Below, piece by piece: positions 1,396-61,218 of a stretch of 64,000 nt of DNA. Made by a program: the position numbers and the translations under genes. Origin of the DNA: Clavelina lepadiformis. Taxonomy: Eukaryota; Chordata; Ascidiacea; Aplousobranchia; Clavelinidae. How positions within the stretch are numbered: the first letter of the stretch is position 1; every line of letters starts with the position of its first letter. The stretch covers positions 2,790,001 through 2,854,000 of the forward strand of contig NC_135244.1 in NCBI RefSeq assembly GCF_947623445.1, read 5' to 3'. A model generated the notes under the pieces. It was not told where the DNA came from. It did not search any database and saw only the letters and a list, made by a program, of their open reading frames with translations.

Positions 1396-2913
1396 TCATT
1401 CTAAATCGTCTTCATCATCAACAATGTAGGTCTTTTTACGCATTTCTCCATCCTCAGTTCGTTTTCGCTTGTTGTCGATAAAGTCGTCATCATCATCAGA
1501 ACTCAGTCTCTTGGCGTTTATCAGCCTCTTTTCACCTTCGGACTCAGAATCAGAGCCATAAATATTTGGTCGCTCCCATCTGTTACCAGTTGTACCAGAA
1601 CCACTCTTAAATCTATTCTTTATAGCGGATACACTGATGCCTTCATCATCATCGTCATTTGTTGTTCCGTCTTCGTACCGATCTTCTAAGTAATTTGTAT
1701 TGAGACCTCTTGCATGCGACCGCTCTCTCATCCTCCTCTTCTGTGCTTCACGTCTGACGTGAGCTTTTAATTGTTCTTCTTCCTCTTTCATGAGAGCAGC
1801 TTTGCGTGATTCCGGATCCTGACCAGCGATGGGCAGCACCCTCACTTTCTGTTGATTCTGGTTGTGTCTCATTGCAAGTCTGTTGGTCATTCGCTTATGG
1901 GTGGCCGACTTTGTGCTGTGGGGCCGGAAGGTGAGCTTGGTTTTGAAAACAGCTTGTCCTTGCAGCCCTGTGCCCTGTCTAATAAACAAGTGGTTGTGGT
2001 CGCCTTGCAACGACATCTGATGCACGTCAAAGATTTCTGATCCCAGATGCATGGACATGCTCCCGTCTGACCACTTGACCATGCGAGCGTTAGACTCTGT
2101 CAACTCAATGCCATTCTCATCAACATACTTCTTCCATCGAATTGTATTCTCAACTTTCAATTTAAGTCTCGTTCTTCCCTCTTCGTCTAAAAGCTCATCC
2201 TCTTCAATTTCATCTTCATAAACTGATGGATCAAATGGTCGAGGTTCAACGCTTATAAAATTGGGAAAGCGGACAAAATGAATTGCGGAGCCAAGGTTGG
2301 TGCTAATTTTTGGCATCTCCACCTCAATAATCGTTTCTACGGCTTCTTTCTCTTCGGGAGCAGCGGGAGTTTCTTCGTCAACTTCTATTTTTTCATTTTT
2401 GTTGTCTCCTCCTTCTTCATCACTTGAAATGTCTGAAGCATCACCAAATAAATTATTAACTTCCTCTGTTTCTTGGTTATCAGCGTTGGACGACTGATCA
2501 CTGTCGTCCTTGATAAGCCTCTGTTTTCGATTTCCAATTTCACTATCATCGCTGTCATCTTGATCGACTGCTTGATGGTCTTCCTCTGCTTCATCATAAC
2601 TTTCTCTTGCATGCTCGTCATGATCAGCACCGTCCCTGTCAGACATGTACTCTGCATCACTTTCAGCATCAACTTCCTGTGGATTTTCCATCACGTCGCT
2701 GTCATCGCTCCCTGATTCCGCATCTTCATGCTCTGCTATGTTCTCTGCCTCGTCTTCGGATACTTCATTTTCCTGCTCCACCGTGTTATCAGCATCATCG
2801 GAAGATGAATCACCAAACAAGTTCTTTCCGGGACTTTGCGCAACATTTTCATCATCCTCATCACTGACGGCACTGTTTTCAGAATCTGATCCAAATAGTT
2901 GATTTTCATCCAT
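1396..2913 (-). CDS. LEO1: LEO1, RNA polymerase II-associated (PAF1) complex subunit, intronless
   Basis: LEO1 is a nuclear subunit of the PAF1 complex, which travels with RNA polymerase II and supports elongation and histone modification. The 505-residue frame starts at [10 protein letters not shown]. Residues 1 to about 190 are a highly acidic S/D/E-rich region with repeated NLFGD-type motifs. The Leo1 core follows, with [17 protein letters not shown], then [14 protein letters not shown] and the segment containing [14 protein letters not shown]. The C-terminus is basic and then acidic with many casein-kinase-like SDSE/SDDDDD runs, as usual in the family. Length sits between yeast and human LEO1. 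The frame is open 37 codons upstream, but the family start is the MDEN methionine. The whole gene is one exon, unlike the vertebrate gene. Confidence 0.93.
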
Positions 2914-4733
2914 TTTTGCAAAATATCGATATAATTTGCATAAAATAGATTGAATGTGAGCAAAAGGTTTGATAAAATTTTCTACATAAAAATTTAATGT
3001 CTGGTAATACAAAGAAGTGAACATTAGTCAAGGGCTTGAGTGGTTTTAAGCAAAGGATCAACTTTTATAGTTGTCTGAGACAACTAGATTTTGCGGCAGG
3101 CAAGTAAATTAAAGGCTAACCTATTACTTGCCTGTCGAGCAACTAACTTTTTGATAACTAGTGCTTCAGGAAAAGGTTTTAACAATAAAAACTCGTATTG
3201 AAGTCTGGAGCAAACTTTGCTGTAACCTATCATTAAAGGTATATTCGTGTGGTCATTTCTTAAACCATGCAAAATATTTCACAGTAAGTAGCCTAAGCTA
3301 TTGACTTCAGTTTAAGGAGAATCATCAGTTGCTTGAACACACCACTTGCTCGTTTGTTTAATTTTCGCTTTTTCAACTTATGTTTTATGGATTTAACTAA
3401 TTCTAGGTTTAGTGGCAGTGCTAGTTGTTACCAGCAAATATCAACGTTACTTCTCTTGCGTACGTTTTAACTCTTTTCGGCTTTGTCACTTTTTCCTGTT
3501 CATTGGCGAGTGTTAGTAACAACTGGCTTGATTTTTCGTCCCCACCTCGCTTTTGGCGAACAATAAAATGATTGATTGATTAAAATTATAAAGCTTTCCC
3601 CTGCTGGACTAACACAAAACTACCAGTAGGCTATTTATAGCACATCTCAAATATCTCAATATCGGCGTGCACGTTGATGAATCTAACGCGTTCGTGTGCC
3701 ACACTTTGTACTATCATTTCTATGCTCATTGTGCAATGTGCACACCACACACACACGTAATTTTTGGTTTGGTTAACCGACAGCCATTTGCCGAGCCAGA
3801 GCGGGTGCTATAGCCTGCTGTTTTCCAATAGCACTCTGGTATTGGCTGTTGCACAGTGATTGACAGGCTGCTGTTGGTGACGTAATCAATATTCAATAGC
3901 AGTTTAGTTTTGCAAGAAAGTGAGTGATTGATGTAGATTTTTTTCAAGAAAAATGTGTATTGGTTTTTAGAAAAGAATATACATAAAGATTGATTGTGTG
4001 TATGGGGATAGCCTAATTTATGTTCAAGTAAACTTTGAACACCTTTGCTATATACAAAACAAAAATGTTGTCCAGTTTTCATCAGCAACCAATATTAGAA
4101 TTTTACTGGAGCAATCACACTCTGCTTTTTATTACGTCACAAATAGCAGTCTAAAGATCACATAGCGGCAACCAAGAGAAGGGTGCTACTCGAGCAATCA
4201 CAGCTGCTGTTCAGTACGTCATGAACAGCAGTCTAGGGTTACACACACCAACAACAACCTGTCAATTACTGAGCATTAAAGAATAACAGGATTATGTTTG
4301 AAAATAGTAGGCTGCCGTACAACAATAACAATTGTTTTTCTGATTACGACCCTGTCTCACTAAATTAATCATCAGCAACTACATGATGTCACCAGTACCA
4401 GCGTGCTTTACCAATCAGCAATCACGTGACGTCAGCAATTGCAGTCTCTCAAAAACAGCAGGCTGGAATTGGGGACCTCACTTGAAATTTTTAGCATACG
4501 TTCAGTTAAAACTGCTATTGGACATCTGGCTGTAACCTGTAAACAATACTGTTGACTTTGATGGCTAATCTACCGATTGGTTTTGGGGTTTCCTTTACTT
4601 GCAACCTGCTGGACACAACACTTGATTGATCGTGACTTTTGGGCAATCAGCTCTTGAATACGTTTCAGTTTTCACACCTAGAAAGTGTTTGGGAGTGGCT
4701 ATTTCTTTTACCGAAAGTAGGACAGGCAAAGAT
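2914..4733. other. Intergenic region, no gene seen; degenerate ~83-bp repeats
   Basis: No conserved coding signal on either strand. It includes degenerate repeats around 4111 and 4194 with GCAATCAC, ACGTCA and AGCAGTCTA in the same order, and a weaker relative near 4420. Confidence 0.5.
4111..4260. repeat. Degenerate direct repeat, period about 83 bp
   Basis: Two copies starting at 4111 and 4194 share GCAATCACA, then TACGTCA, then AGCAGTCTA. A more diverged copy near 4420-4480 keeps CAATCACGTGACGTCAGC. CRE-like TGACGTCA cores recur. Confidence 0.5.
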
Positions 4734-41815: not shown

Positions 41816-43090
41816 TCAGCAATCCACGCTTGACATGTCACAAGTGTTATTCAGATATTCAAAGTAAGTCAAGGCTGGAAGTCTTTTAGTAGATATGGCA
41901 GTTGCTTTATCTTTTGCTTCGCTTGGGACCGCCTTGTCCTTATCGACACGTTTCCTCCTCAGCCAGGGAAAGACAATTTCCCTCCAATTAACGTAGGTGT
42001 ACAGCAGGCACCCAATGTTGAGAAGTATGTTCAATTCGTAGAGGACGCTTAGAACAAAAATTGGCAAGTCGTCCAGAAGCCACATGGACACCATGGCGCC
42101 TATTACGTCAGTCGTGATACCGACCGTACCGCCGACTAAGGCGCGCTTCACGCATTTCAGGAGCCGGTTTGTAGACTTGAAGACGGCCTGCCCGGAGTTA
42201 CGGCGGCCTCCTTCAGAGCGTTTTTTCATCTGAACATTGTGGCAGACTATTGGATAGACGAAAAGGAACGTCAGGCTTATCTGGATGGAGACCGTAGAGA
42301 TCACCATGACGCCGAACGGGACGTACACGGAGACTGTTTCGCTCTCGTGCAGCGGGACGCAGACATTCTCCAAAGTAAAATAATCCCTCCACCAGAGGTG
42401 GAGCACTAGAGCTAGCAGGACAGTGACTACCATCTCTACATAAGTGGCGAAACTGATGAGTTTCAAGCTCCTCGGTCTGATCTTCCGGAGGAGCGGATTG
42501 GCGTAGAAGGCAAATTGTCGGAGCCAGAGGAACACGAGGCATCCATGGATACTAACCGCGGTCAAGGTGATCATCAACTTTGTGAGAGTATTGCAAGCCA
42601 CATCGGAGCTGCCTCCATCGAGAAATATCATTTGCTCCACCAGAACCCGAAAAAAGTTGACGTAAACGGTGAAAAGAAGAGTATTTCGCATCCATCCACC
42701 GGTGTTCACTCGATGCCGGTTTCTACGCGTTTGTCCAGAGCTTTGGTTGTTGTTCTTTTTCGCGGTCGAAATCGCGGCTGTTCCATTTTCGGATGCAAAT
42801 GAGTTGAAAGTGGTGACCAATCTCAAAATGACCGGACGTTTCGAATTGCCCTTGCCTTGTTTTGAATTCTCCCTCTTGACAAAAATCGTGATGCAAATGA
42901 GAAGATAGAAACTCACCAACACGCAAAGAGCGGACACTACTTCGCCCGCAATCCACAACTTCTGCGAGTAAATTTTAGTCCACCAACCAGTGTGATAACT
43001 TCCAGATTCTGACAAATTTGCAACCGTTGAATTATTATTTGAGTCTTGACTGGTGTACAGGTTTTGAAAGTCGACCGTTTCAAAGGCCAT
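41816..43090 (-). CDS. Orphan seven-transmembrane receptor-like protein, intronless
   Basis: A 424-residue single-exon frame. The N-terminal 45 residues carry Asn-X-Ser/Thr sites (NNST, NLSE) and no signal peptide. Seven hydrophobic segments fall at about 47-71, 133-157, 166-190, 208-233, 255-282, 317-339 and 342-368, separated by basic loops on alternate sides. The first loop (72-132) is long, basic and rich in S and N. The tail is basic (RRKRVDKDK) and ends YLNNTCDMSSVDC. This topology fits a G-protein-coupled receptor with an outside N-terminus, but I see no DRY or NPxxY motif and cannot assign a class. It may be a lineage-specific family. The last ~30 residues are duplicated downstream. 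Being intronless fits either a rapidly expanding receptor family or a retrocopy. Confidence 0.75.
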   Translation of the reverse strand: MAFETVDFQNLYTSQDSNNNSTVANLSESGSYHTGWWTKIYSQKLWIAGEVVSALCVLVSFYLLICITIFVKRENSKQGKGNSKRPVILRLVTTFNSFASENGTAAISTAKKNNNQSSGQTRRNRHRVNTGGWMRNTLLFTVYVNFFRVLVEQMIFLDGGSSDVACNTLTKLMITLTAVSIHGCLVFLWLRQFAFYANPLLRKIRPRSLKLISFATYVEMVVTVLLALVLHLWWRDYFTLENVCVPLHESETVSVYVPFGVMVISTVSIQISLTFLFVYPIVCHNVQMKKRSEGGRRNSGQAVFKSTNRLLKCVKRALVGGTVGITTDVIGAMVSMWLLDDLPIFVLSVLYELNILLNIGCLLYTYVNWREIVFPWLRRKRVDKDKAVPSEAKDKATAISTKRLPALTYFEYLNNTCDMSSVDC

Positions 43091-46000
43091 TTTGAAGACT
43101 TAAAATTGAACACCTTACAGCTGTATGAAAAGAAAGCTGTTTTTAAAAACTATAAACTTAAAGGAAGCATAACTAAATCTATATAACTATGCAAATGCAG
43201 ACAGATGCTTTCATATTTTTTTGCAACAGGCTGCAGTATTTTATAGAAAGCCAACAAAATCCAACTGAATAATTGAACAAAATTGATGACACACTGATAC
43301 AAGCTGCTTGAGAGACATCTGCCTAAAGCCTACACTAAAATCATGCTGAGGTCTACGCGTTGTTTTAAATTAATGCTTCATTTTACGTCCAGGATGTTGT
43401 TTACGCCCACCCATATTATAGAGTACATTGACTCCAAGCTAACCTACTATCATCAATGGCAAGTAATAGCGCAGTGAGATGCGCCCGTAAAGCACCATCC
43501 ACTTATTATTTTCAGGGAATTATCAATTTCGCTGTCACTTAAAACAAAACAAAAACGTCAAAGATTGATTAATCCAGTGATCAATGTATTATTTGTGAAA
43601 ATCTTTGTATAGCTAAACAAGTATGACGTAACGCTATAGCTCAGCGAAGTAGATTTGTCATTTGGTAAACAGTTAATTTTATCACGCAAGGCAACATTTC
43701 GCACTGAAGAAAGAGTAAAATTATTGCATTTAAATGAAACGTGAAAAACAATTAAACGTTAGCAAATATTAAAGATTTAGGTTAAACTTTTAAAGCCAGG
43801 CTGTTCAAAGGAAAACAACTTAGTCCGGAGATAAAACGCTACAAACAGGAAGCGCTACAGTAGATATTTTGTTTCCGCAAACACCTTCTTGACTCCGATT
43901 GACATCAAACTGCACTAAATAATCGGTCATAAATGGCCTGACAATAACACAGAAATACTTCCTCATCGCAAACGATAAACATCGGAGGGAAAAGAAGATA
44001 CAAAACTAGTAGTTGGCCAGCCAACTTCAATGCGGATCGAAATATTAACGCGGATGTTGTAGGGGTGGGAAATGTTCCCATGCAAGTCCTGCTTCTCAAT
44101 ACGCAACAGGACGTAGAAGTCGCAAATAGTTCCCAGGCAAACCATTCGGCTGCTGTAATCAGCCGAGTGTACTAAAATTTTAAAACAATCATCAAATAAA
44201 ACTTAAAAATCTGTAATAAAAAATTTACTGAATTTTGAAGCGGCAACACGGTGATGGTGACGAATGTCGTACGGTGGACGTCACTATACGAAAAGTTAAC
44301 GGATATCCGGTCCGGTGCGCATGTGACGTCAACGTAAGTTGCCTTATTATTATTTTGGCAACAATTGGTCACAAGTCTATATTTCGTGATTTTTGACAAT
44401 ATTAAGCTGAAAACTTATTGGAAAGTTTAAGTGGTTGTTTTATAGGCTCCAATGCACGCGGTTTTTCTCCAAAATAAAAATATAGGCGTTTGTGACTTAG
44501 ATATTGTTGAAAGCCAAAATTCAGGGAGATTTATGTCGTAGTTTACCTGTAACAGCTAATTAATTTCATGTACTTTGCATTGAAGATCTCACCTCTTTAC
44601 ATAGGGTTGTAACATTTTACTTCAAGTATAAAATCTATCACTTGTGCAAAATTTCGTGTTTAACCTAAACTATGTCGCTGTTTCTAACTGTATTCTAACC
44701 CACTAGATATTATACTATGGTTGCCGCCAGGCAAAAATAATCATCAGTAAGGCTCAATTGGTGAAAAACTGAACTTTACTTTTGCCGACGTTTCATTAAC
44801 CCCTTCGGGTTAATTAAAATATGTTAATTTAATATGTTAATTTAAAGAATTTATTTAAATATGTTAATTTATCACATGACCGGACGTAATCAGCATTAAA
44901 GTGGTGCGTCGAGGGACCAAGTAGCTTTAAAGCAGAGAAGTTTGAAAGCAAGGTGACAAAAGATAAAGGAGATATTAACCGTCAAAAAGGGCTAAAAATT
45001 GAAAGTTTTCGGAGATTTCCCCCAAAACGTAGTCAAGTGATCGCAATCATATACGAACTTGACCGAAATTGCATTAAACCTCGCCCGCATACCAAATTTC
45101 AAGAACGTCTGATGTTATTTACGCGATTTATCGCACGCGCAACAAAAAATGAGGAAACGAAAAATTTGAAAAATTATGCCCAAATACGTATAGCCTAATA
45201 CCAAATACAATACGTGTCGAAATTTTCGATTTCGTTACGTAATAAAGGATGCCGGCTATACAAGATTCTGCTTAAAACGTTTGCCAACTGTAAGCTACCA
45301 ACTGTTTATGTATAACTGTCTGCATTGGTCGGTAGCTGTCCGGCGTCCACATGCAGGGTTAACTGTAAACTAATTACTTTGTCTCGTTTTCTTGATTGTT
45401 TACAAACTTTACATCGACAAGAATAGAGCCATCTCAAACAGAGCCCAACTGCGCCTATTTCTGTGCCTCTACGCGCCTGCAAATATGAGCTTTAAGCAAA
45501 TATAACCTTCAGTTTAGCACTAGACACGGATAAAACACGGAAAATTTTGTAGTCAACACCGCCTACTTCCTTGGGCTTTTTGCTTCGGGGTTTTTGACGA
45601 AAGATGTGCTTTGCAGAAAATTGTTTGATGGGCAACTTCATGGGATTAATCACCTGAAGGAAACAAAAGGTCGTGGAAAATATCTGACGAACCCACACGG
45701 CGCTCGACAAATTTAGAAAATTTATGGGGTATGCAATACAAGTTAGTTTTGTTAGCTTGGCATCAAGTACTAGTATTTTAATTTTGGTCCTAAGATGCCT
45801 AAGATGCCACAACAACGAGCTCATAAAAAGTATGTTTGAAGACTAACTCACAGAATTAAGTTTTGGATGCACGTCTGCTACCAGAGAACCAGTAACCAGG
45901 TTCACGCCGCGTTGAGGGGATCTTTTGCACAACAAAAATAAACCCAAATCCCTCACTAAGCAAACCTGTAATTTGTACTCGTTTATTCTATTATATGCCA

Positions 46001-48062: not shown

Positions 48063-51000
48063 TCACTGCATAACCGGCATCTCACCGTTTTCGCTCGTTA
48101 CCCGTCCGCGAGATGTCGCGACAGAGGAAGTATCACTGCTGTTACTGTTACGACGAGAACCAAAGCGATTTTCGAGATCAGGGATTTCGTCTGCTATGGG
48201 CTCGCCGTTCGACTTGTAGCTGTTGGTTTGGTGAAGTCCCCGCAGCAAATGGACGTTGAAGTAATATTTCTCGTGGCAAACTTGACCGCAAATCGTGCAT
48301 TTGAAAGGATCGGTCTTATCGTGGCAACTCATGTGTAAAGCCAACATCATTTCGTCACCAAACGTGATGTCACAGTGACGACACGTTCGCTCCTCTTTGC
48401 TTTGCACGGTCTGTGTCGATGACGTGGCGGTAGGACCCGGTTTTCTTTTGTCTTCCTCATCCTCTTTGGGGGTCCCGCTCAGATCCAGCGGAACGAAATG
48501 ACGTTTTACATAAGATGGGGAATTCGAAAGTGGTGGTGTGGGGAAAGCCGGTGACGTAATTGGGCTGTCAGACTGAAAAAAATGAGAATAAAAATGTGAT
48601 TTTAAATTAAATTTCAAAAAATTAATACTGTTAATTAAATAAGATAACGTGTGATTTAAGTATGCATACATTCTCGATGCTTTATTTAGATAAATGTCTT
48701 AATACCTCGTATTTGTTCGCTTCGAAATTGGCTGCTGAAGGTTTCTCATTTGACGAAGGCTCGTTTTGTGCGCTAGAAAAAGATAAGAATTAAGAATTAA
48801 ATTTCGAGCAACGAATAAATTATTCAATACAAATAAAACATGAAAACACTCAGATCCATATCATTTAATCGGGGTACATCGGAAGGGGCGCAGAAACACA
48901 ATGGGCTTTGACATTATCTAAAGCCACAACAGTGGGCGTACGCGAAAAAAATTTGACAAGCACTTTACGGCTTCTGACGAAAAAAGGGCAATAATCGGCT
49001 CACGAAGCTAGCGTGAGAAGGCCGCCTACCTGTCAGATCTCAAATATAAACAAAAGCAACTGGCACTCGCGCCCGGGAGTTGAGTCAGACCGAGATGTAA
49101 CCGCTTTGCGTGACTCGGTGCTCTGGCTTGCGTGAGAGCAGCTTGTCTATTTTGTTTATAGCTGGCCACTTTGTTTATTTGACAATTTAGCCAACTCATA
49201 ATGTTCGTTGGGCTGAACCTTTAACAACGCTGTCGATGCGGCACGCTGACTTAGATCAAAGGAAATCGGCCGACTCATGGTGCAGGAAATTAATTATGTG
49301 ATATGTGATACACCTTGGAAAAATTCCCCATATAACCTTGCAAGGCAGGGTCAGAAAAATATAGACGAACGGCTTAATAGACATTACAAATCCTATTTAT
49401 GTAAACTTGTATATATAGGGCTACAACAGGAACACATGAATCAACGTCGATTTTCAAATATTTGGCGATTTGATTCGTAATAATCGGTTTTTAATTTTCC
49501 GAGAGGCGGCTCCGCTTCGCTCCCACGTCACAGCAGTCTTATGTGGAATGCGAGTGCGGTTACGGTCAGTTTGCGGTTCAGTCGCATTGCACGCGATGCT
49601 TGGTTGTAATTATTGTTCTTACAGCCGTTACATCCCGCTCTGGAACAACCGCAGTTACATGGCGGCCGTATTGACAATTACGGACGCCAATAACGTTCGT
49701 TTCTCTTCTTTTTAACTATTTTTCACCGAGTGAAATTCGGGATGAAGCGCGAACTTTTATAAATTATTCAACCACTTAATTGTGAAAACCTGCTCGCTTT
49801 GATTGGATATTCACGAAATCTGGGCTTTTATGTCGCGCTTAATCGCGTTTTTTCATTTTTAATTGAACTACTTTGACATTAGTAACATTCTGAAAACACG
49901 TAAATCGATTGATAACCCTACTAAAGGTTACAAAAATCCGTCCGGGTCAAAGGGCCATTGTTACATCACAACTGCAGAAGAATGGCAAGCTCCAAGTTCA
50001 GGACAGGCGCGCATTAAACATTAACACGCCATCACGCAGCACACGCACGGTGGGTCGCTATTTGCACGCGAGCAGTGAAAAAGAAGAGAAAAAAAGCGAA
50101 AAAAAAATCGACTGAACGTAAACAAAAAATATCGGGCAGGTTTAATTTCAAGATGGCCGACGGTTGTCACTTAAAGCTTCGCACGCAATCGCCCATCTTC
50201 ACATATTTAAAGCGCTAATTAGCGCATAACTAGACGCGCTACTCATACAACTTGATGCAGACGAACTAGATTAGGTCCGGAAAAGTCATCGTGTATTATT
50301 ATTATTAAAACATCTCCGTCTTGGCACTGATCGAACCATCACAGCCTGGCACTGACATTTGGTAGAAATTAACGACCACGTCATCACGCATTGCGGAACG
50401 GGTTCGAATATATTTCAGATTTATTTAAAGCCAAAAAATTATCTTCGGGTTATGTAAAATATTGTGTGGGTTTCAATTTCAAATACGTGCGGTTGGGTCT
50501 TGGGTCTTCGAAAATCTATAAAATGCGGTTGAGGTGTTCGCGTAAAACATGGAAAATTTTAACCTTAACATAGGGTACAACTAACCAGGCCGTTTAGAGC
50601 TTTTTAAGGAATATATGGTTTTCGATATTCTGTAATACATATCCGGTTATTAAGAGTATGACAGTCTATTGCCGTGTAAAATCGGGATGTTCCACACATC
50701 AAACGCGGCTAAAATTAACGGTATGAATGGAGATTAGGCAAACTGCGGTTTTGTTTTCCCAAAAAATACAGCATGTAAGCTGTTATGATGATTTCGATCT
50801 TTGCACGCAAGCTACGACTGAAACGAACTTTAAAGTACGCCTTTCTCGGACACAATTAAAAACAACGCCCCCTCGAGAATCTGCCATTCGTCAAACCAGC
50901 GGCACGTGCAGTTTTTGCTTTATATGAAACGTCTGTGACTTTTTCTATTTAAGAAAAGGGAATCTACGATTGAATTTTCGTAAAATTCCAGCGCTCCAGG

Positions 51001-54000
51001 TCACGAAAATAACCGATACTAACTCGACGGCGAGACAAAACAATGACAGAAAAACACAAAATGGTCGATGTATCACCTAATAGACCTTGTATTGTGTCGC
51101 AACAATGGCGTTGTGATGAATTCGACGTTAAGCGGTTTTTTCCCCAACAGGATTCGCCTTTTTTCGCGTGAAACAACATTTCATAAATTACCAAATATTT
51201 TCGTCCTGTCACGCAAAGTAAACTACGCAAAATTTGCAAAACAGCGATTTGGCCGATTGCCAAGGCCTGCTTTGTTTACATGCGCTGCCCGCTGTGGTGC
51301 TCGGTGGATGCATTCTTTTCGAAAAATCGCGTTTGGAGTTTCGTAGTAATTCGGCGAGTTGTTTGTCTTGTCCGCACGACTCGAAATCTCTTGTACCACG
51401 ATAAACAGGAAAACTGTTCGGAGAAGCTATTATTATAAAATAGCGTTTTTGGTTATTTTTTCGTAAATACAAATATAACCAACGCAATTTCCAGTTTCAC
51501 GAAAAAAAAATGAAAAAAAGTTTTTTATCAACGTCAAAGAAGAAATTTTTTTTTCTACACGTAGTTTATTGTTTCCTGTCTTACGAAATTATAAACGGAG
51601 AAAAAAGTTTTAATTTGACATTTGAAGGCTTAGAGTTTAAATCGGGCGAATATTACGCGGTTTGTGCGAAATGTCAGCGAATGGCGCAGTCTAAACAGAG
51701 TGCTCTCACCAAAACCGTACTTAATTACAACCTGGGTTTCCAAAAACGGTTCACCGTTTGTGTATCCTTACCTTCGCACGCGATCGTGATACTTGTACGA
51801 AGGCATCAAAGTCAAAGACGATTAATTAATGCCTACGAGAGCCAAACCCACAAATGCAATTCAATTACAATTCTATAACTAACGTTCGTTTAAAACTTCA
51901 TGAATTCGATCGTCGCTTTTAACAAATATAAAATGGTTTGGAGTGACAAGGGATATCCCCCTAAACAGGAACACCATTTTTCGGTAGAGGGGCACGACCG
52001 TTGTATATGTAGCGATGATTCGAAGTCATATTCAGCGCGACACACGGCAACGCCTTCTTGTTTACGATACGTTTCCTAAGTCATCGCTTGCCCGAATTTA
52101 AAACTGAAATATTGGAGACAAGTCGAACTTAGTACGTTGCCTTAACAGCTCGCCCCGGGCAAGGCCAGCTAGGTTGCGTGCGAACAGTTAAAACCGCGAA
52201 AGAAATTGTTTATTTTCGTGATGTAACACCAGAAGGTGTTTATGCTTGAACAAAGACGACATTCGCACGCGAGATAACCACCACTCGTAAACACGCCTCG
52301 CCGGTTTCGGCATTTTTTTTGCGTCGACTTTTTACGATTTTTGTTTTCAAAGAAGTAGCGGGTATTCCTCTGAAATCTCAAAACGACAATTAGAATTTGA
52401 GATTATCGAAGTCACACCAACCCTTTTTCGTACACTCCAGGATGTGACATAACAAAAACGATTTAAAATGCTGTACCCGCAAAACGATGTACTACATCCA
52501 GTACACCGATTTCGACTGCGTCATATTCGTTCTCATAGAAATTAATAATAAACATGTAATGACGCGGGAATCACCGAATTATTCCAATGGGAGATAAAAT
52601 TCTGATGACTCGTAAATTTAATTTGTTTTCTATTTATGCAATTCTCAGTGTTTTTGCTTTTAGAGTATAGTACATGTAACAGCTTAATCTAATTACTTCG
52701 AAAAACGGCCGTTTCCTTGGTTATTTATAAACACGTTTTTAGTTATTTCTATTATTTTGATTCATTCAAATATAACGCTCCAACGAATCTCCGTCACAAA
52801 GACATTTTGCTCACGTGACCAGGCTTTGTTTGTTTCCCATTTCAAGTAACCTTCCTACCGCGTTGTTTACCTCTTACGGCCCATGCGTCACTATTGGACG
52901 ATCAACAAGTGTTTTTCTGACTCACTTACAAATAATTCGATTGCTAAGGGCGCTAGAGAGCCTTTCTACTACAAACAGGCGTGGCATTAGGTGGCGCATT
53001 ACGTGACTGACCAATGGACGGTCTGTGTGCACCGCCGACGACAACAAGGGTTTCGAAAGTGGTCTTTGACCGCTGATACGGACAAAATGCAGCTCCAGAT
53101 GGCCTTACGTCATACTCTGACGGCGGCGTGTTGATTGGCGATATGATAAAGCAACATGCTGATACTATTTCCTAGCAGCGATAAAATTTGTTTACTTCGA
53201 AGAGCTGTTTATTACCACCTCTGCGCTAAATGGAAGATGCTTCCCTCGATGGTATCGGTTGCCAAGACACTAAACCCATTTAAATTGAAGATTTCAAGAG
53301 CTGTCGAACTCTTTTGGACGATACGAACTCGTTACAACAAAAAAATGGTAGCGGTCGTTCTCGTTCACGTTTCAGTCTTCCGTATCTTGCAGTTTCTTTA
53401 AAGTGTGACTCGCGGTCCTTTTAAGCCCGCCAACTAAAACGTGTTGTGATTTGCAGCGCTTTTCTTTTTGTGGAGGCAAAACGCAAACAGACTATTTGTC
53501 CACTGAGTCAGCCCTTTTCACATCCATCAACAACACGATGCATAAACACAATGGTCTCCTATTGCGTCACAATCACTCGAAATGGATAAGGGGTGCGCGG
53601 GGTCGAGAGTTGCGGTTGGACAGGGACGTTTGTTTACAAAAGTGGACCCAGTAGGTTTTGGCGGGCCCGCAAAAAGCAAGTGACGGGGTTGGCATTATCA
53701 AAATTAAAGAGACTTGTTCAACACAATCAAATTAAATCAAGTGTTAAAAATGTCGACCAAAATTAGTTGTCCAAATGACAAATACGTACCGCAAATTACG
53801 GGGCAATTCAGTTTGTTCGCAACTAGTTGTTTTCTACGTCTATTTTTGAGAAAAAACGCACGGATAAATTATGAGACTTGGCCGGTGGCGCTCGAACAAT
53901 AAAATCTGGGACAGTTGGTTTATTTTTCTAGATTTTTAACGAGATGACTTTTAACTCGCCTCAGAAACAATGGCTGTGGTTTCCTGTTATTGTCAACGCA

Positions 54001-57000
54001 CGTTGGCATTGCAATGCATTATCACAGGGTCGGTAAAAAACAGGAACTAAATAAACAAGCCAACAAGACAATACAGTAACTGAGCGGGGATCCTGTTGCT
54101 GTTCAAACAGTTTTCGCGCTCGCTTGAAAACAAGCGGAGGAACTCAAGAGAGCGAAAATTTGATCGTTGGCAGACACAACTCAAAAACAAGGGTGTAAAC
54201 TGTAAACCGCAGCTTTACGGGCTCCGGTTTACGTTCTAAAGACCTATAAAGCGATAACGTGGCAAATTTCGTAACCATTACGTCATCATGAATAAGTTAA
54301 GTACACATTTGGCAAACTCGTACAACCCGGTTTATGAAATATTATCAGGCAGTTTATCGTGATGCATTAGAAGAAGGTATAAGACTATAGAGGGTATAGC
54401 CGGTACATGTTTTTCAAACGCGGCTGGTAGACCAAAGCTAAACAATGTGTCAAAATTCCAACTGTATGTTGTGTAATTATTTACAACTATAGTGGGGGGG
54501 CTTAAACAACAGTCGCAAACATCCCGCTGTAAAAACTGTTTTTCGCGTTTCCATGTTGACTGATAGGATTCTGCGTAGTTGACGTATTTTATAACTTCGA
54601 AAAGCCAACGAACTAAGAATCGCAAAAATATCAACCTAGAGACCATCAGCTTAGCATAAAAACAGGCCCCGACAGCTGTTGGGGAGTAAAAACACAGAAC
54701 CTCTACCCCCTCAAAGTTGTTTGTTTCAAGATTCCAATGAAAACAAAAAGTCGCTCTTGCGAGTCAATCACAGGCAGTAATCGAACTTGAAAGAGGAATT
54801 TGAGTTCGTTTTCAAAAAACTAGACAACAAACAAAAGCGTAAACAATGTACTTGCTACCACGCGGTTGTCGCCTGCCCTTGAACGCAATTTAATTTGTTC
54901 TACAGACAGAGGCTATTTTTTTGCGGTGGCCTTTTTAAAAATCACAGTTTAAAAAAAGCGGAAAAAGCACCACACGTCAATCCAACGACGCGTAAAAATC
55001 AAGCCAAAGACATGGAGATTTTTCCCGGCGATGTACAAGAATGTCATCAAATTGAGGGAAGCGTATTATCGTTACCACATGGCTCTGGCAAGTTGCATAA
55101 TCTAAGAGACCATGTGAGTTATTAGAACGAATTACGTCATAGTCCTTGAGGAACAAACTTAAATTGCTTTGGAGGCGGCTTGCTTGCCTTTAAACGAATC
55201 CTAGTACTAGCGCCAAGCTAATAGACATCGGAAAAACATGTGTTGTTGCCAATAGCGTTTGTATGTATAGCCTAGGCGCTAATAGGTTAGCCATGAAATA
55301 GAGGTTCGTCTTCCAACCGCTTGAGAAATTAGAGTTTGATTGAAATGGACCCGCGTCATTTTGCCGAGCGTATAATGCTATCCGTTGTTAACGTTCCTTT
55401 ATTCCCGACGGTATTACGACAAACTAACTTACAAGAAAACAAATACCAATGATAAGACTTACATTTCCAAGTTCGGCGACGACCCTTTTACAGTCATGTC
55501 ATCGGCTGTTTCGTTAGCACCGGATGACGTCATAGCGTCGTTCTGAGCGTGAGCCTTGCGGTAATGCAGATCAAGGCCATGGTCACCCTTGGCCGTGAAA
55601 TCGCAGCGCGCGCACTGCTTCTGATGAAATAATGGACTTGTTTAGTTGTTTTTCTTTAACTTTGGAAGATGTTGGCGCTGTTTTCAGTGAACCCGACTTA
55701 CCCAGCCGTGAATGCTTTTCCTCGAGTCCGAATCCAGATCCGGGTTCGAGTCCGGGCTTCGGCACAGAGATACGGTGTTTGGTTGTGTGATAACGCTCGC
55801 TGCATTTACGCAAAAAATGTATAAGAATTAAAAATAAACCAAAAAAGGCGTAAAAATAAAGACAAAGACGTTAAAAGTGATCGATTTTCCAACCTGCTGT
55901 GGCGGTAGAGCGGCTGTTTGGTGATTGGCTGGCGGTTTTATCGCTGTCGTCAGAAGAAAGTGCCTTCATCTGGCTGAGAAACTTCTGCTGGTACTGCCAG
56001 ATATTTTTCAACTGATTCGACTGTTCGGTCTCGGCCCCAGGCGTCTGGGGGGTTGAAAATTACAAATTTTCGGATTAACTCATAAAGCTTAGTTTTGGTC
56101 TATTATTATGAAAAGCAATTGTTTAAATAAATAATCAGCAGTAAATGTAGAAGAAGGCTTACGGGGCGAGGGAAGGCGGCCGCGGCCAAAGCACTATTCG
56201 CAGGGTTCGAGATGAACGGGTTCAGGGCCAACTGTTGGTAGAACAAGCGAAGTTGTTCTTGGGAAACGTTTGTACACGACGCTACAAGAAACATCACAAG
56301 TTCACAAAATCGCTTAGAAAGTGGAAAAAACGTTAAAAACAAACCTTTACACAGTGAAAACGTTTAAAAAATGCCTACAAAAACGTTAACCTAATGCGTC
56401 TGGCTTTACGGTAACTTGCGTAATATTTTCAACTTACCGGCAGCGGCCTGTTGTAGTGCTGCGTTCAAAGCCTGCTGTCTCTGGTAGGCGGCGTATGCGT
56501 CCATATCGGAAAGTCCATTTTCCACCTCTCCTGTGGCCTGACCAGCCTGCCCGGATCTGACTTGTTCGGCAAGTGATCGCATCATGTTTTCATCGAGGAG
56601 ACCGGACGGAAATGTATTGGAGTACGGAAATCCGGAAACTGCTCCACCTCCTTAAGATACAACAAACTCTTAGCGATTTTGTCGCGGAAAGTGACGAGTA
56701 TTTTCCGTTTCCGAAGCACTTGCCAATTCTGTCAAAATGTTTTTATTTTACCTGATGCCTGGGCGGCGGCGAGGAAGTTCTGGGCCATCATGGAACGTGG
56801 CGAGAGTCCAGTCACCATGTTTTGCAAGGACATAAGTCGCTCGGACGATTCTGAACAAACAAACGAAAGGAGAACTCAGAACAATGAACGATGCTGTTTT
56901 TCTGCAAAATCTCCGCTATTTACCTTTCGATTTTACGTTGTCAGCGTTCCTGTCATTTTGGTTTTGCGCAACTGCGGCGGCGGCAACAGCTTTTGCCTTG

Positions 57001-60000
57001 GCATTGGTCAGTTCCAGCTGATGCATGACGCGCACATGCTGTTCCAAAAGTGCAGCGCTAGCGCTGACGTAAGTGTAGGCGCAGAATCGGCATCTGAAGT
57101 GGCGAATCGGCATCTCAGACGCATCGTACCGGATTGTAACCTCGCTGCCAACCTTAAGATAACAGACAAGTTGCGAAACATGCACATTACGTACGTTATA
57201 GTACACATCAGCTTATCTAGCACTCGTTGAAAACGTGAATCAGGGACTGAAAATAAAACCATTTAGAATTAAATTGTAATAAAATCATCCTCTACCTCAA
57301 CACCGTCCACAAGAACAGGAGACTCGCTGCCTGCGTATCCTTCATCGGCGAACTGGAGTCCGCTCTTGCCGGGAGAGGAAGAGGAACGATCGCTCGTGAT
57401 GAGAGGAGGCATTATCATCCCTGAAGTTGCGATGAGACTCTTCTGAGCGGCCGCAAGCCAAGGTTGAGAACTGGTCGCAAGTAGATGAGAGGTATCTGTT
57501 TTCCTGGACATCTTAGACTGCATGGAAGAGTCGAGAAGAGTCTTGCTGAAAACGTTTAGGTTCCCTTGCATCTCCTCCACCGATGATAAAGAGTTTGGTC
57601 TCCTTGGCTCATCCGATCTAATGCCGCCTGCAAGAAATTAGTTCAGTTCAGCAAAGGATCGTGCAAAATTTCCAGCATGGTCTAACAGCAGCGAGATTTT
57701 GTTTACCCGAAACACTTGTTTTGTTTTCGTGTTTGTGTCGGGCGCGTCAAATGTGTTATTTGGCAAAGCGCGCAGTGTCTCGCTCAATTCATTCACGTTG
57801 CAGACCGTGTATTGTGCTCATAATTGCGTGCAAAGAGTTTGAAAAGTTTTCTGATGCACTGACAACAGATTGACAGCACGTTTGTCACATATGACTTGTA
57901 TAATAGACGCCAATTGTGACGTAAACAATCAACAGTTTGTCTAACGGCGTGATGGGCTCATGTAGCTACAAATGACGCGAATTTCCGGTGAAAATCTTTT
58001 CCGGTGGCTAGTTGTGATATATTGCGTCATAAATCGGTCACAATACACATGGTGACGTAGTAAAATAACACGTAGGTAGCAGCTATAACTGGCGAAACGT
58101 TATTACGTAATATTGTGTTTGTCGTGTCGTGCGCACTATGCATTGTTTTAAGTCTCATGACTGGACGGCTGCGCACCGGGATAAACTCTTGTTAACATGA
58201 TAAGCGATGATTAATTGTTTGCAACAGAATGACAAACAGTCCGTGTGATTGATTTGTCATTAGGGAAAACATACACATCTTTCCAAGCGCGAATAATAAC
58301 ACTGCATAAGTTTGCGTCACTGAAGTAAACCTCAAGTCATCTCACCTAAGCTAGGTCCGTCTCCTTGCTTCAAAATCATCATCCGTGGATGCTTGGCTCC
58401 CTCCGGTCCCTGAGGACTTTGAGAACGCTTTCTACCTCTTGCGGACCCTTCGTCATTCTGGAATCCGTTTCCAGCTGCCCACGCTCCTCCAGCTAGCCCC
58501 ATCAGCTGATTGGGGAAGGACATCGGATACCCAACATCCGAGGGTGAGGATGTAGCGGACGTGGGGTTTGCGGACTGGTGGTTTTTATTCGAATCCGCTT
58601 TTCCTTTTGATCCGTGTTTGGCTCCTTTATTATTAAACAAAATCGATCTTACCACAATGCATTAGCTCTTTCTTATCGGTACCTTGCTCAGTTTTGGGAG
58701 AAAAACCGCAGCATCCGAATATAACGAAAGATTGATGGAGTGTTAGACAAGAGATCATTAATATCAAACGCATTAACATCCGCAAGTTATCATGAAGCTT
58801 AATTTGTTATTCCACTTCTAACGGTGAGTGCTGACTAAAGTCATATACTGAGTTATACCGCAATGAAGGCTCGGAACTATTTAGTGGCATCCCCTGGCAA
58901 AATTTACAAGGAGAGAATGATCCTATTACCCCTACTCCATGATGACCGGTCAATCAATCAACCCTTCCAAACATAAGCCGCTTTGCCAAAACAAACAAGC
59001 AATGATAATAAAAAGAAACGTATCGAACTGATTTGACGTTCCGACGTGTTTTAGAAGCAGTGGAAAATTCCTACCTTCGTTGGAAAACTTCTTGGCTTTT
59101 ATGGCCTTGTATGCTGAGATTGGAGCGAGAGCGGCTCCTCTTCTTCGGCGGCGTTTAAAGCTGTTTTCGTTGCCAAATTCTTCAAAGCCTTCCCTGGTCA
59201 TGGTCCAGTAGTTAGACTTGGCAGCGTTTTCGTATCGTGGAACTACGGTGGAGATAAAACAGAAACACTTAAAAAGATGGGGTTATCTACACGCGCATAA
59301 ACTACTATGGAATAAATGTGCTTCGACGTTTGAAATACGACCCTCCAATATTCCTGTTTTCAAAGCGCCGAGCGACGGAGAAATTAGCATCATAACGAGT
59401 TCTTCCTTCCTTTGGAAAGACGGGAGCGCAACGGCCAAACTATCTACGCCTAAATTTTAAATCGCTCAATCCACCATATGATAAAGGTGGTAGCTGGCAC
59501 TTCGCTGGCAAACACACTGTGTTACGAAGTACCCTGCTCAAAGGCTCGAATACTTTAACAGCACAAACGTGAGATTTAAGGGGAAATTTAAGGGCTTTTG
59601 TCGCCAGCGCAACACTTCCAAATGTATCCATTACTATAGCAACTGAACCGGCGTGAGAATTCCATGATATGCGAAGTATCCGTGGTCGATTTTCCAAGAA
59701 CGCCCTTCCCGGTAAACATTATTTGTTTCCTCGGAACAATACGTTTTACATATAACCGCACGCTATTGCAATTCAAAGAACGCTACGCTTGCAATCGTGC
59801 AAGATAAAACGAACGTGTTAATTCGGCTTTTAACGACTAATTGTTGCTAATCACTGGCAAGCACTGTGCCAGCGTTGCGTCCTAGTTGTAAGTGGGTGGG
59901 TGATATTTATTTCAAGGCATAGAATTCGGGCGAACGTTACAATCAAAATCATGAATATGAAAGTCACCACGAACAGCGTGTGTACGACGTCAATACCCAC

Positions 60001-61218
60001 TATACCAGTAACATAGAAGCTATCATATCATATCGTCCTAAGTCCATGCATGAAATGTAGAACGAAACTCACCTTTCACGAAGCACTGGTTGAGGCTCAA
60101 ATTATGACGGATCGAATTTTGCCAGGCCGACTTGTCGTGGCAGTATTTGTAATATGGAAAGTGGTTCATGATGTAATCGTAGATGCCTCGCAAAGTGATC
60201 AGATGTCCCGGGCTATCCAAAATCGCCGACGCTATGAGAGCAGGGTACGTGTGCGGGGGTCGCTTGTACTGTGCCCTATCCTCCGGCGGAGGGGTAACTG
60301 ATGTCAACGAGCGGTTGACATTGGCGTTCGAACCGATTATGCCCCGGGCTTGGAACGTCTTGCTCTCGCTCTCCCTGTTGAGATTCTTGGCGTCAATGTA
60401 GGCGCCGGCGTCAGGGCGGTAGCGGTGCTCCGCGATCGGCAGCAACTGCGGCATCGTCGCCGTCGCGCTTGTCGGTATCATCGTCGGCAGACCCATGCCC
60501 GCTGCCATGGCAGCTATCGCACTTGTCGAGTGGGCGTTGATCGCTTCGTACGGGATGCTGACCACGTGAGACGGGGATGAGGAGAAGGACCGCTGGGAAA
60601 TTCCTCCTGGGATGCTGATGGGGGCTTCTAGATCCTTTGGAGAAGATACCTGTATGGGTGATGTCGATGGTCGTCTGTGAATCGCGTCCGACGACAAAGA
60701 TCTCTGCGGGGACACGCCGTAGGTGGGGGTCGCGTCCAGGGGAGGGTTCTCGCTGTTGTTAGGGCGAATTTTCACGAAAGGCTCGGGGCTGTTGGTGATG
60801 CCGTTGTCAGATAAGTTGTCCTCGTTCCTCTCGTTGCTATACAAACTACCAGCTGATTCAACTGAGCCTGGTGATGTTGTCGGTCCCCTGACGCCTTTGG
60901 GGCTAGAGTGATGACGCAACGCTAAAGTTTCGTGCATGTCAATCATCTTGTTTTCTTGTTTAGGGCTTTCGCGTTTATTTTCTTCAACCGGTTTCGCTTT
61001 TATTACTTGTTGTAAGACGTAGTCCAGGTTTTTTCCTTTCCTGGCGTCTTCGTCGTTCGTTTCTAAAGCCAGGTCCGTGTCGATCTGGCGAATTCGGCGG
61101 GGTTTCGAACTGCTTTTTCGCCGCCGAGATTCGAGTTTCTTGCCTGTCCTAAAGCTGTTGACTTGCTGTCCGTTTATAGCGTTCTCCTTCGTCTGGAAGC
61201 TCGCTTGACTGCTTTCAG
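48063..61218 (-). CDS. Forkhead plus C2H2 zinc-finger chimeric transcription factor (5' exon missing)
   Basis: Thirteen minus-strand exons join in phase: 60073-61218, 59075-59242, 58346-58624, 57296-57627, 56924-57152, 56752-56850, 56438-56650, 56163-56281, 55894-56044, 55702-55799, 55463-55620, 48706-48772 and 48063-48572; about 1188 residues plus an unseen 5' exon. A basic patch ([13 protein letters not shown]) precedes an S/P-rich region. The forkhead lies at about 316-410: [42 protein letters not shown], then across an intron [15 protein letters not shown]. Downstream come Q/A-rich segments and C2H2 fingers near 660 ([10 protein letters not shown] type), 947 ([11 protein letters not shown] type) and a pair near 1083-1137 (CRHCDITF and FKCTICGQ) resembling the paired C-terminal fingers of Ikaros/Hunchback proteins. 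PLDLSG near 1047 fits a CtBP-binding motif. Likely a nuclear DNA-binding regulator, perhaps a repressor. Two adjacent genes wrongly joined is the alternative. Confidence 0.75.
48773..55462 (-). other. 6.7-kb intron of the forkhead-zinc-finger gene
   Basis: By far the largest intron in the window. No coding exon or RNA gene was recognised inside. The flanking exons join in phase 2 (AT plus C). It may carry regulatory elements or an alternative promoter for a zinc-finger-only product. Confidence 0.5.

Follow-up and report, generated by a model that had tools for sequence, protein, structure and literature searches.

A candidate tunicate forkhead regulator with a C-terminal zinc finger pair of the Ikaros/Hunchback type

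Introduction

The 64,000-nucleotide window analysed here, from the ascidian Clavelina lepadiformis, raises the question whether a forkhead domain and four zinc fingers belong to one gene, and what kind of protein such a gene would encode. Among Fox proteins, a zinc finger is reported for the FoxP subfamily, and finger and leucine zipper are called exclusive to it (PMC8508939); for the Ikaros/Hunchback family, excerpts describe a C-terminal finger pair that serves dimerisation (PMC12506653, PMC11228169). The comparisons below indicate that the regulator encoded by the Clavelina locus is genuine and of a kind so far uncharacterised, with a forkhead domain at one end and a finger pair of the Ikaros/Hunchback type at the other.

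Gene structure and the public Clavelina protein

On the minus strand, 13 exons run from 61218 to a stop at 48063 (Table 1); their introns are all of the GT–AG type, and the phases agree at every exon join. The model within the window, which begins with the first base of the 61218 exon, comprises 1189 residues up to the stop. Coding exon 1, at approximately 66560–66497, lies about 2.5 kb outside the window and ends in a phase-1 donor that fits the 61218 exon; it brings the gene to 14 coding exons in total. The initial annotation had proposed thirteen exons on one strand that keep phase from the forkhead to the last finger pair, and the splice sites, the matching phases and a public protein all bear this out.

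The public protein (P0001) is Clavelina lepadiformis LOC143458611 isoform X2 (NCBI; 1209 aa); public databases thus already include the gene, its product being listed as uncharacterised or under a generic name. P0001 matches model residues 310–1189 with 100% identity (rounded; one residue differs), and has 21 further residues at its start, derived from the exon at ~66560–66497. Exon 11 starts in P0001 with one lysine fewer (HGWQC vs. HGWKQC in the model), consistent with splicing at the second acceptor of a tandem pair; this lysine is kept in the homologs P0002, P0003, P0004 and P0006. P0001 contains coding sequence from either side of the 6.7-kb intron and agrees with the model in the peptides of both the small exon (48706–48772) and the last exon, so that the joins around this intron rest on more than the present model.

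Table 1. Coding exons of the forkhead–finger gene within the window, and neighbouring reading frames.
Feature	Coordinates	Strand	Evidence
Coding exon 2 (first in window): low-complexity N-terminus and approximately first two thirds of forkhead	60073..61218	-	Pfam Forkhead 5.5e-26
Exon: remaining forkhead (wing, KRRRRRG basic end)	59075..59242	-	phase-1 join FVK/VPRY completes domain
Exon: linker with conserved PRMM-LKQGDGP motif	58346..58624	-	gene model, motif scan
Exon: linker	57296..57627	-	gene model
Exon: zinc finger 1 (C-x2-C-x14-H-x4-H), then Ala-rich stretch	56924..57152	-	gene model, alignment
Exon: linker	56752..56850	-	gene model
Exon: Q/A-rich linker	56438..56650	-	gene model
Exon: linker	56163..56281	-	gene model
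Exon: linker	55894..56044	-	gene model
Exon: linker	55702..55799	-	gene model
Exon 11: zinc finger 2 (C-x2-C-x12-H-x4-H); tandem acceptor, giving HGWKQC or HGWQC	55463..55620	-	gene model, public protein
67-base exon after 6.7-kb intron	48706..48772	-	peptide stands exactly in P0001
Last exon: PLDLS (CtBP-type), TQT (LC8-type), zinc fingers 3 and 4 (Ikaros/Hunchback-type pair), stop	48063..48572	-	gene model, motif scan, alignment
LEO1	1396-3027	-	Pfam E 5.2e-52; single uninterrupted reading frame
TCP-1 chaperonin, 563 aa	12564-14255	-	Pfam 3e-155; single uninterrupted reading frame
Thr/Ser/Pro-rich, mucin-like open frame, 1125 residues	34504-37881	+	no Pfam match at E<=0.01
Open frame with many hydrophobic stretches, 427 residues, possibly multi-pass membrane protein	41816-43099	-	sub-threshold Pfam match only

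Relatives in other tunicates

A protein search in which the 7989 candidates sharing most words were scored returned 39 proteins. Among them, the proteins of Phallusia mammillata, Ciona intestinalis, Ciona savignyi and Styela clava (the four being P0002, P0003, P0004 and P0006) are 59, 58, 58 and 43% identical, respectively, over the searched region, of which P0002–P0007 cover 94–99%; relatives of this identity and coverage in four other tunicate species exclude a chance arrangement. The order from forkhead to fingers is the same in the Phallusia, Ciona and Styela proteins, and the species with the gene span Aplousobranchia, Phlebobranchia and Stolidobranchia (taxonomy looked up for Clavelina, Styela and Phallusia). 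The domain pair that the initial annotation recommended looking for in related genomes is present in the proteins of Phallusia, of two Ciona species and of Styela. The new architecture that it had proposed stands insofar as forkhead and fingers share one frame and are real; it is not a one-off of this locus, being an old gene, found in species from three ascidian orders and present in public databases.

Complete ligands in all four fingers are found in seven of the nine aligned proteins (P0001–P0007). In P0008 (40% identity, covering 46%), finger 2 has been lost, as has the final histidine of finger 4, but forkhead, finger 1 and most of the finger pair remain. P0009 (715 aa, from a 3101-base metagenome contig) is fingerless, although its forkhead is of the tunicate type, with 86 identical residues out of 103; since it is nested in the tree among finger-bearing rows, with modest support (89/73), loss of the fingers is as possible as a primitive state. 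The C-terminus of P0009 differs, and contains a stretch that resembles SAM very weakly (ANKS1A, E 0.015) and has no Pfam match; an appendicularian source would be a guess.

A search with the forkhead alone, covering 522 candidates, yielded 276 matches; among the best 120 of these, P0040–P0065 are tunicate-like by their forkhead, and P0066–P0159 show 49–61% identity and bear names such as FoxL1, FoxL2, FoxL3, FoxI2, slp2 and FoxS1. P0040 (405 aa) has the forkhead, a TQT motif and the finger pair, without fingers 1 and 2.

The zinc fingers and the C-terminal pair

Four fingers with C2H2 ligands lie C-terminal of the forkhead; this position, which the initial annotation had contrasted with that of the FoxP finger, is confirmed by the exon order and by the aligned relatives. 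None of the four reaches its Pfam cut-off, and the precomputed domains of P0001–P0007 consist of PF00250 only. Finger 1 is non-canonical (Table 1), and fingers 3 and 4 form a close pair (C-x2-C-x12-H-x3-H-x7-C-x2-C-x12-H-x5-H). The pair spacing fits eight of the 35 family members (P0001–P0007 and P0040); 25 others are fragments ending at or near the forkhead.

The same spacing is common to the three Clavelina pairs compared (L015–L017), which we take to be Ikaros-type on the basis of motifs and spacing and not of a named database match; the earlier claim that the last two fingers are spaced like the Ikaros/Hunchback dimerisation fingers agrees with this pattern. In a genome search with the finger pair, in which 150 of 282 candidates were scored, one full match was followed by L015–L017 at 55.3, 47.9 and 47.6 bits, the next other finger pair reached 33.2 bits, and the rest scored below; the Clavelina genome has at least these three Ikaros-type pairs, separate from the present gene. 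Ordinary DNA-binding fingers, with which the protein would read composite sites together with the forkhead and without dimerising, are an unlikely though not negligible reading of the pair: a PDB search with the pair does give ordinary DNA-binding fingers first, but alignment scores are 138–147 against the Ikaros-type pairs and 86–97 against the four ordinary pairs compared, and in its spacing, as in the residues HM-x-CH and the final H-x5-H, the pair resembles the Clavelina Ikaros-type pairs.

With Ikaros (IKZF) and Hunchback, the protein shares a C-terminal finger pair with the spacing of the three Clavelina Ikaros-type pairs; it differs in being without a tandem DNA-binding finger set, in place of which the forkhead would bind DNA. 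According to excerpts of one study, Ikaros/Hunchback family members have four DNA-binding fingers besides the C-terminal pair (PMC12506653); elsewhere in the present protein there are two isolated fingers only. The same excerpts report that no self-interaction of the worm Hunchback-like protein HBL-1 was detected in a yeast assay (PMC12506653); such a pair need therefore not always dimerise.

At E<=1, neither finger 1 nor finger 2 matches anything else in the Clavelina genome, and searches of this genome with the forkhead, finger 1, finger 2 and the pair found no second copy of the gene. Both stand isolated, and they probably serve protein contacts rather than DNA reading. In the Ciona protein, as modelled by AlphaFold, fair confidence (block means 67–87) is confined to the surroundings of finger 1 and to finger 2; near finger 1, strands run into a 41-residue helix, and finger 1 may on this account be part of a larger small domain. 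The forkhead blocks of the model range from 54 to 73, and the remainder is mostly lower; structure models of fingers 3 and 4 are thus of poor quality, and those of the forkhead no better than middling.

Short motifs and proposed function

The PxDLS motif binds the corepressor CtBP, and TQT is the core of sites for LC8, a dimerising hub. In a scan of ten proteins, PLDLS was present in five (P0001–P0005), 28–36 residues before finger 3; its absence from P0006–P0009 and P0040 implies that CtBP recruitment cannot be general. TQT precedes finger 3 in nine of the ten (P0001–P0008 and P0040), all of them with the finger pair or its remnant, and is absent from the fingerless P0009. When P0001 was shuffled in 2000 trials, TQT arose in 14.7% and PLDLS in 0.8%; for TQT, the constant place before finger 3 is a stronger argument than its occurrence. 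The scan also found PRMM-LKQGDGP after the forkhead in eight of the ten proteins (Clavelina exon 58346-58624), and RG[IL][IVP] before the forkhead in nine (Clavelina exon 60073-61218).

With moderate confidence, we regard the protein as a tunicate forkhead factor ending in an Ikaros/Hunchback-type pair that functions as a dimeric, CtBP-recruiting forkhead repressor. The forkhead would bind DNA; the C-terminal pair would join two molecules, or join the protein to an Ikaros-type partner, and the conserved TQT, of the type bound by LC8, would help the pair to do so; PLDLS, upstream of the pair, would bring in CtBP. The predicted outcome is a dimeric forkhead regulator, repressing at least in the PLDLS lineages. 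An activator or bifunctional regulator, whose Q/A-rich linkers recruit coactivators and whose CtBP-like motif matters in some lineages only, appears improbable; the linker between fingers 1 and 2 is 54–61% identical in P0002–P0005, and PLDLS is absent from P0006, P0007, P0008 and P0040, as this alternative would have it, yet PLDLS is kept in P0001–P0005, and linker composition by itself tells little.

The dimeric repressor can be extended, speculatively, into an evolutionary scenario: an early tunicate may have put an Ikaros/Hunchback dimerisation module behind a forkhead, the pair would heterodimerise with the animal's own Ikaros-type proteins, LC8 on TQT would act as a second clamp, and forkhead targets would, in tunicates alone, be connected to the Ikaros network; the P0040 form would then represent the functional core.

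Identity of the forkhead domain

The forkhead matches Pfam PF00250 with 107.9 bits (cut-off 27), placing the protein in the Fox family, and a Foldseek search gave four matches at E<=0.001, all to forkhead structures. The domain is split by a phase-1 intron after FVK. Across 103 residues, the domains of Clavelina and of both Ciona species do not differ; identity to the Clavelina domain is 94–100% in P0002–P0006 and 83–90% in P0007–P0009. In a tree of 39 rows, which includes few named classes and in which several class labels are our own reading, the ten tunicate forkhead rows form one branch with moderate support (86/90, below the strong-support mark) on a stem of 0.5 changes per column, and this branch has no supported sister. 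The nearest outside forkheads score almost alike in pairwise comparison: a Solea forkhead protein reaches 275, Clavelina L006 272, FoxI2 267.5, FoxG and a FoxC-like sequence 266.5 each, and FoxL1 266. L006, the next forkhead in the Clavelina genome, is 58% identical and groups with FoxD rows. On these comparisons, the domain is treated as an orphan Fox forkhead, known here from tunicates only and with no clear Fox class.

The Phallusia entry bears the name FoxI1, for which these comparisons give no support. In the tree, FoxI2 and Clavelina L001, L002 and L010 fall outside the 33-row branch (94/98, midpoint root; few named classes) that holds this gene. The forkhead is about equally similar to FoxI2, FoxL1, FoxG, FoxS1 and FoxD-like domains, and Clavelina has separate FoxI-like domains on this chromosome; these three forkheads, L001, L002 and L010, lie close together (G000:C5:13.49-13.51 Mb) and are FoxI-like by tree reading.

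That this is a FoxP relative whose fingers were rearranged is highly improbable. Excerpts of PMC8508939 do name FoxP as the Fox subfamily with a zinc finger, and in the present protein, as in FoxP, forkhead and zinc finger would be joined with an element for dimerisation; FoxP has its single finger and its zipper before the forkhead, whereas here up to four fingers come after it, and the dimerisation element would be an Ikaros-type pair. A Pfam search of this protein gave no FoxP coiled-coil match, and at E<=1 no domain at all N-terminal to the forkhead, where FoxP has finger and zipper. The pairwise score to a tick sequence that we labelled FoxP is 183, vs. 275 for the best outside sequence, and the tunicate branch (86/90) is separate from FoxP in the tree, with no tie between them, though the single FoxP row is long-branched (end branch 2.25).

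One gene and its origin

Forkhead and finger pair stand in one unbroken frame in P0005 (1093 aa, 3878 bases), P0007 (1100 aa, 4346 bases) and P0040 (405 aa, 1376 bases), whose contigs exceed the reading frame by approximately 600, 1040 and 160 bases; we read all three as spliced transcripts, which makes two separate genes very unlikely. Two separate mRNAs, the finding that the initial annotation had named as refuting a single gene, are the opposite of what these contigs suggest. After F[VI]K-G, 23 of the 35 family members (Clavelina included) run into unrelated sequence, ten continue, with P0005, P0007 and P0040 among them, and two deviate; the departure of the 23 from the domain reads as at an intron. 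That a forkhead gene and an adjacent zinc finger gene were joined by a wrong gene model or by read-through is almost certainly wrong: the 6.7-kb intron and the 67-base exon separate finger 2 from the last pair, and the Clavelina public record is possibly a computed model, but the unbroken frames of P0005, P0007 and P0040 and the identical forkhead–finger order in the Phallusia, Ciona and Styela proteins contradict it. An origin by gene fusion or exon shuffling is plausible; protein searches with the whole region and with the forkhead, and the genome search with the pair, found no unfused sister of either half.

Searches of the open-access literature yielded no account of the fusion; subscription papers and early Ciona surveys, which lie outside this coverage, may mention it. 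With all fingers below the Pfam cut-offs, the architecture has probably been kept out of sight. A Fox gene with a C-terminal Ikaros-type pair in species from three ascidian orders breaks the exclusivity of zinc finger and zipper that excerpts of PMC8508939 accord to FoxP. It would also illustrate cleanly how a new pairing of domains arose in the vertebrates' sister group; Ciona is a ready system for testing what the gene regulates.

Neighbouring reading frames

Four further frames were noted in the window (Table 1). Those for LEO1 and the TCP-1 chaperonin are uninterrupted, in contrast to the many-exon forkhead–finger gene.
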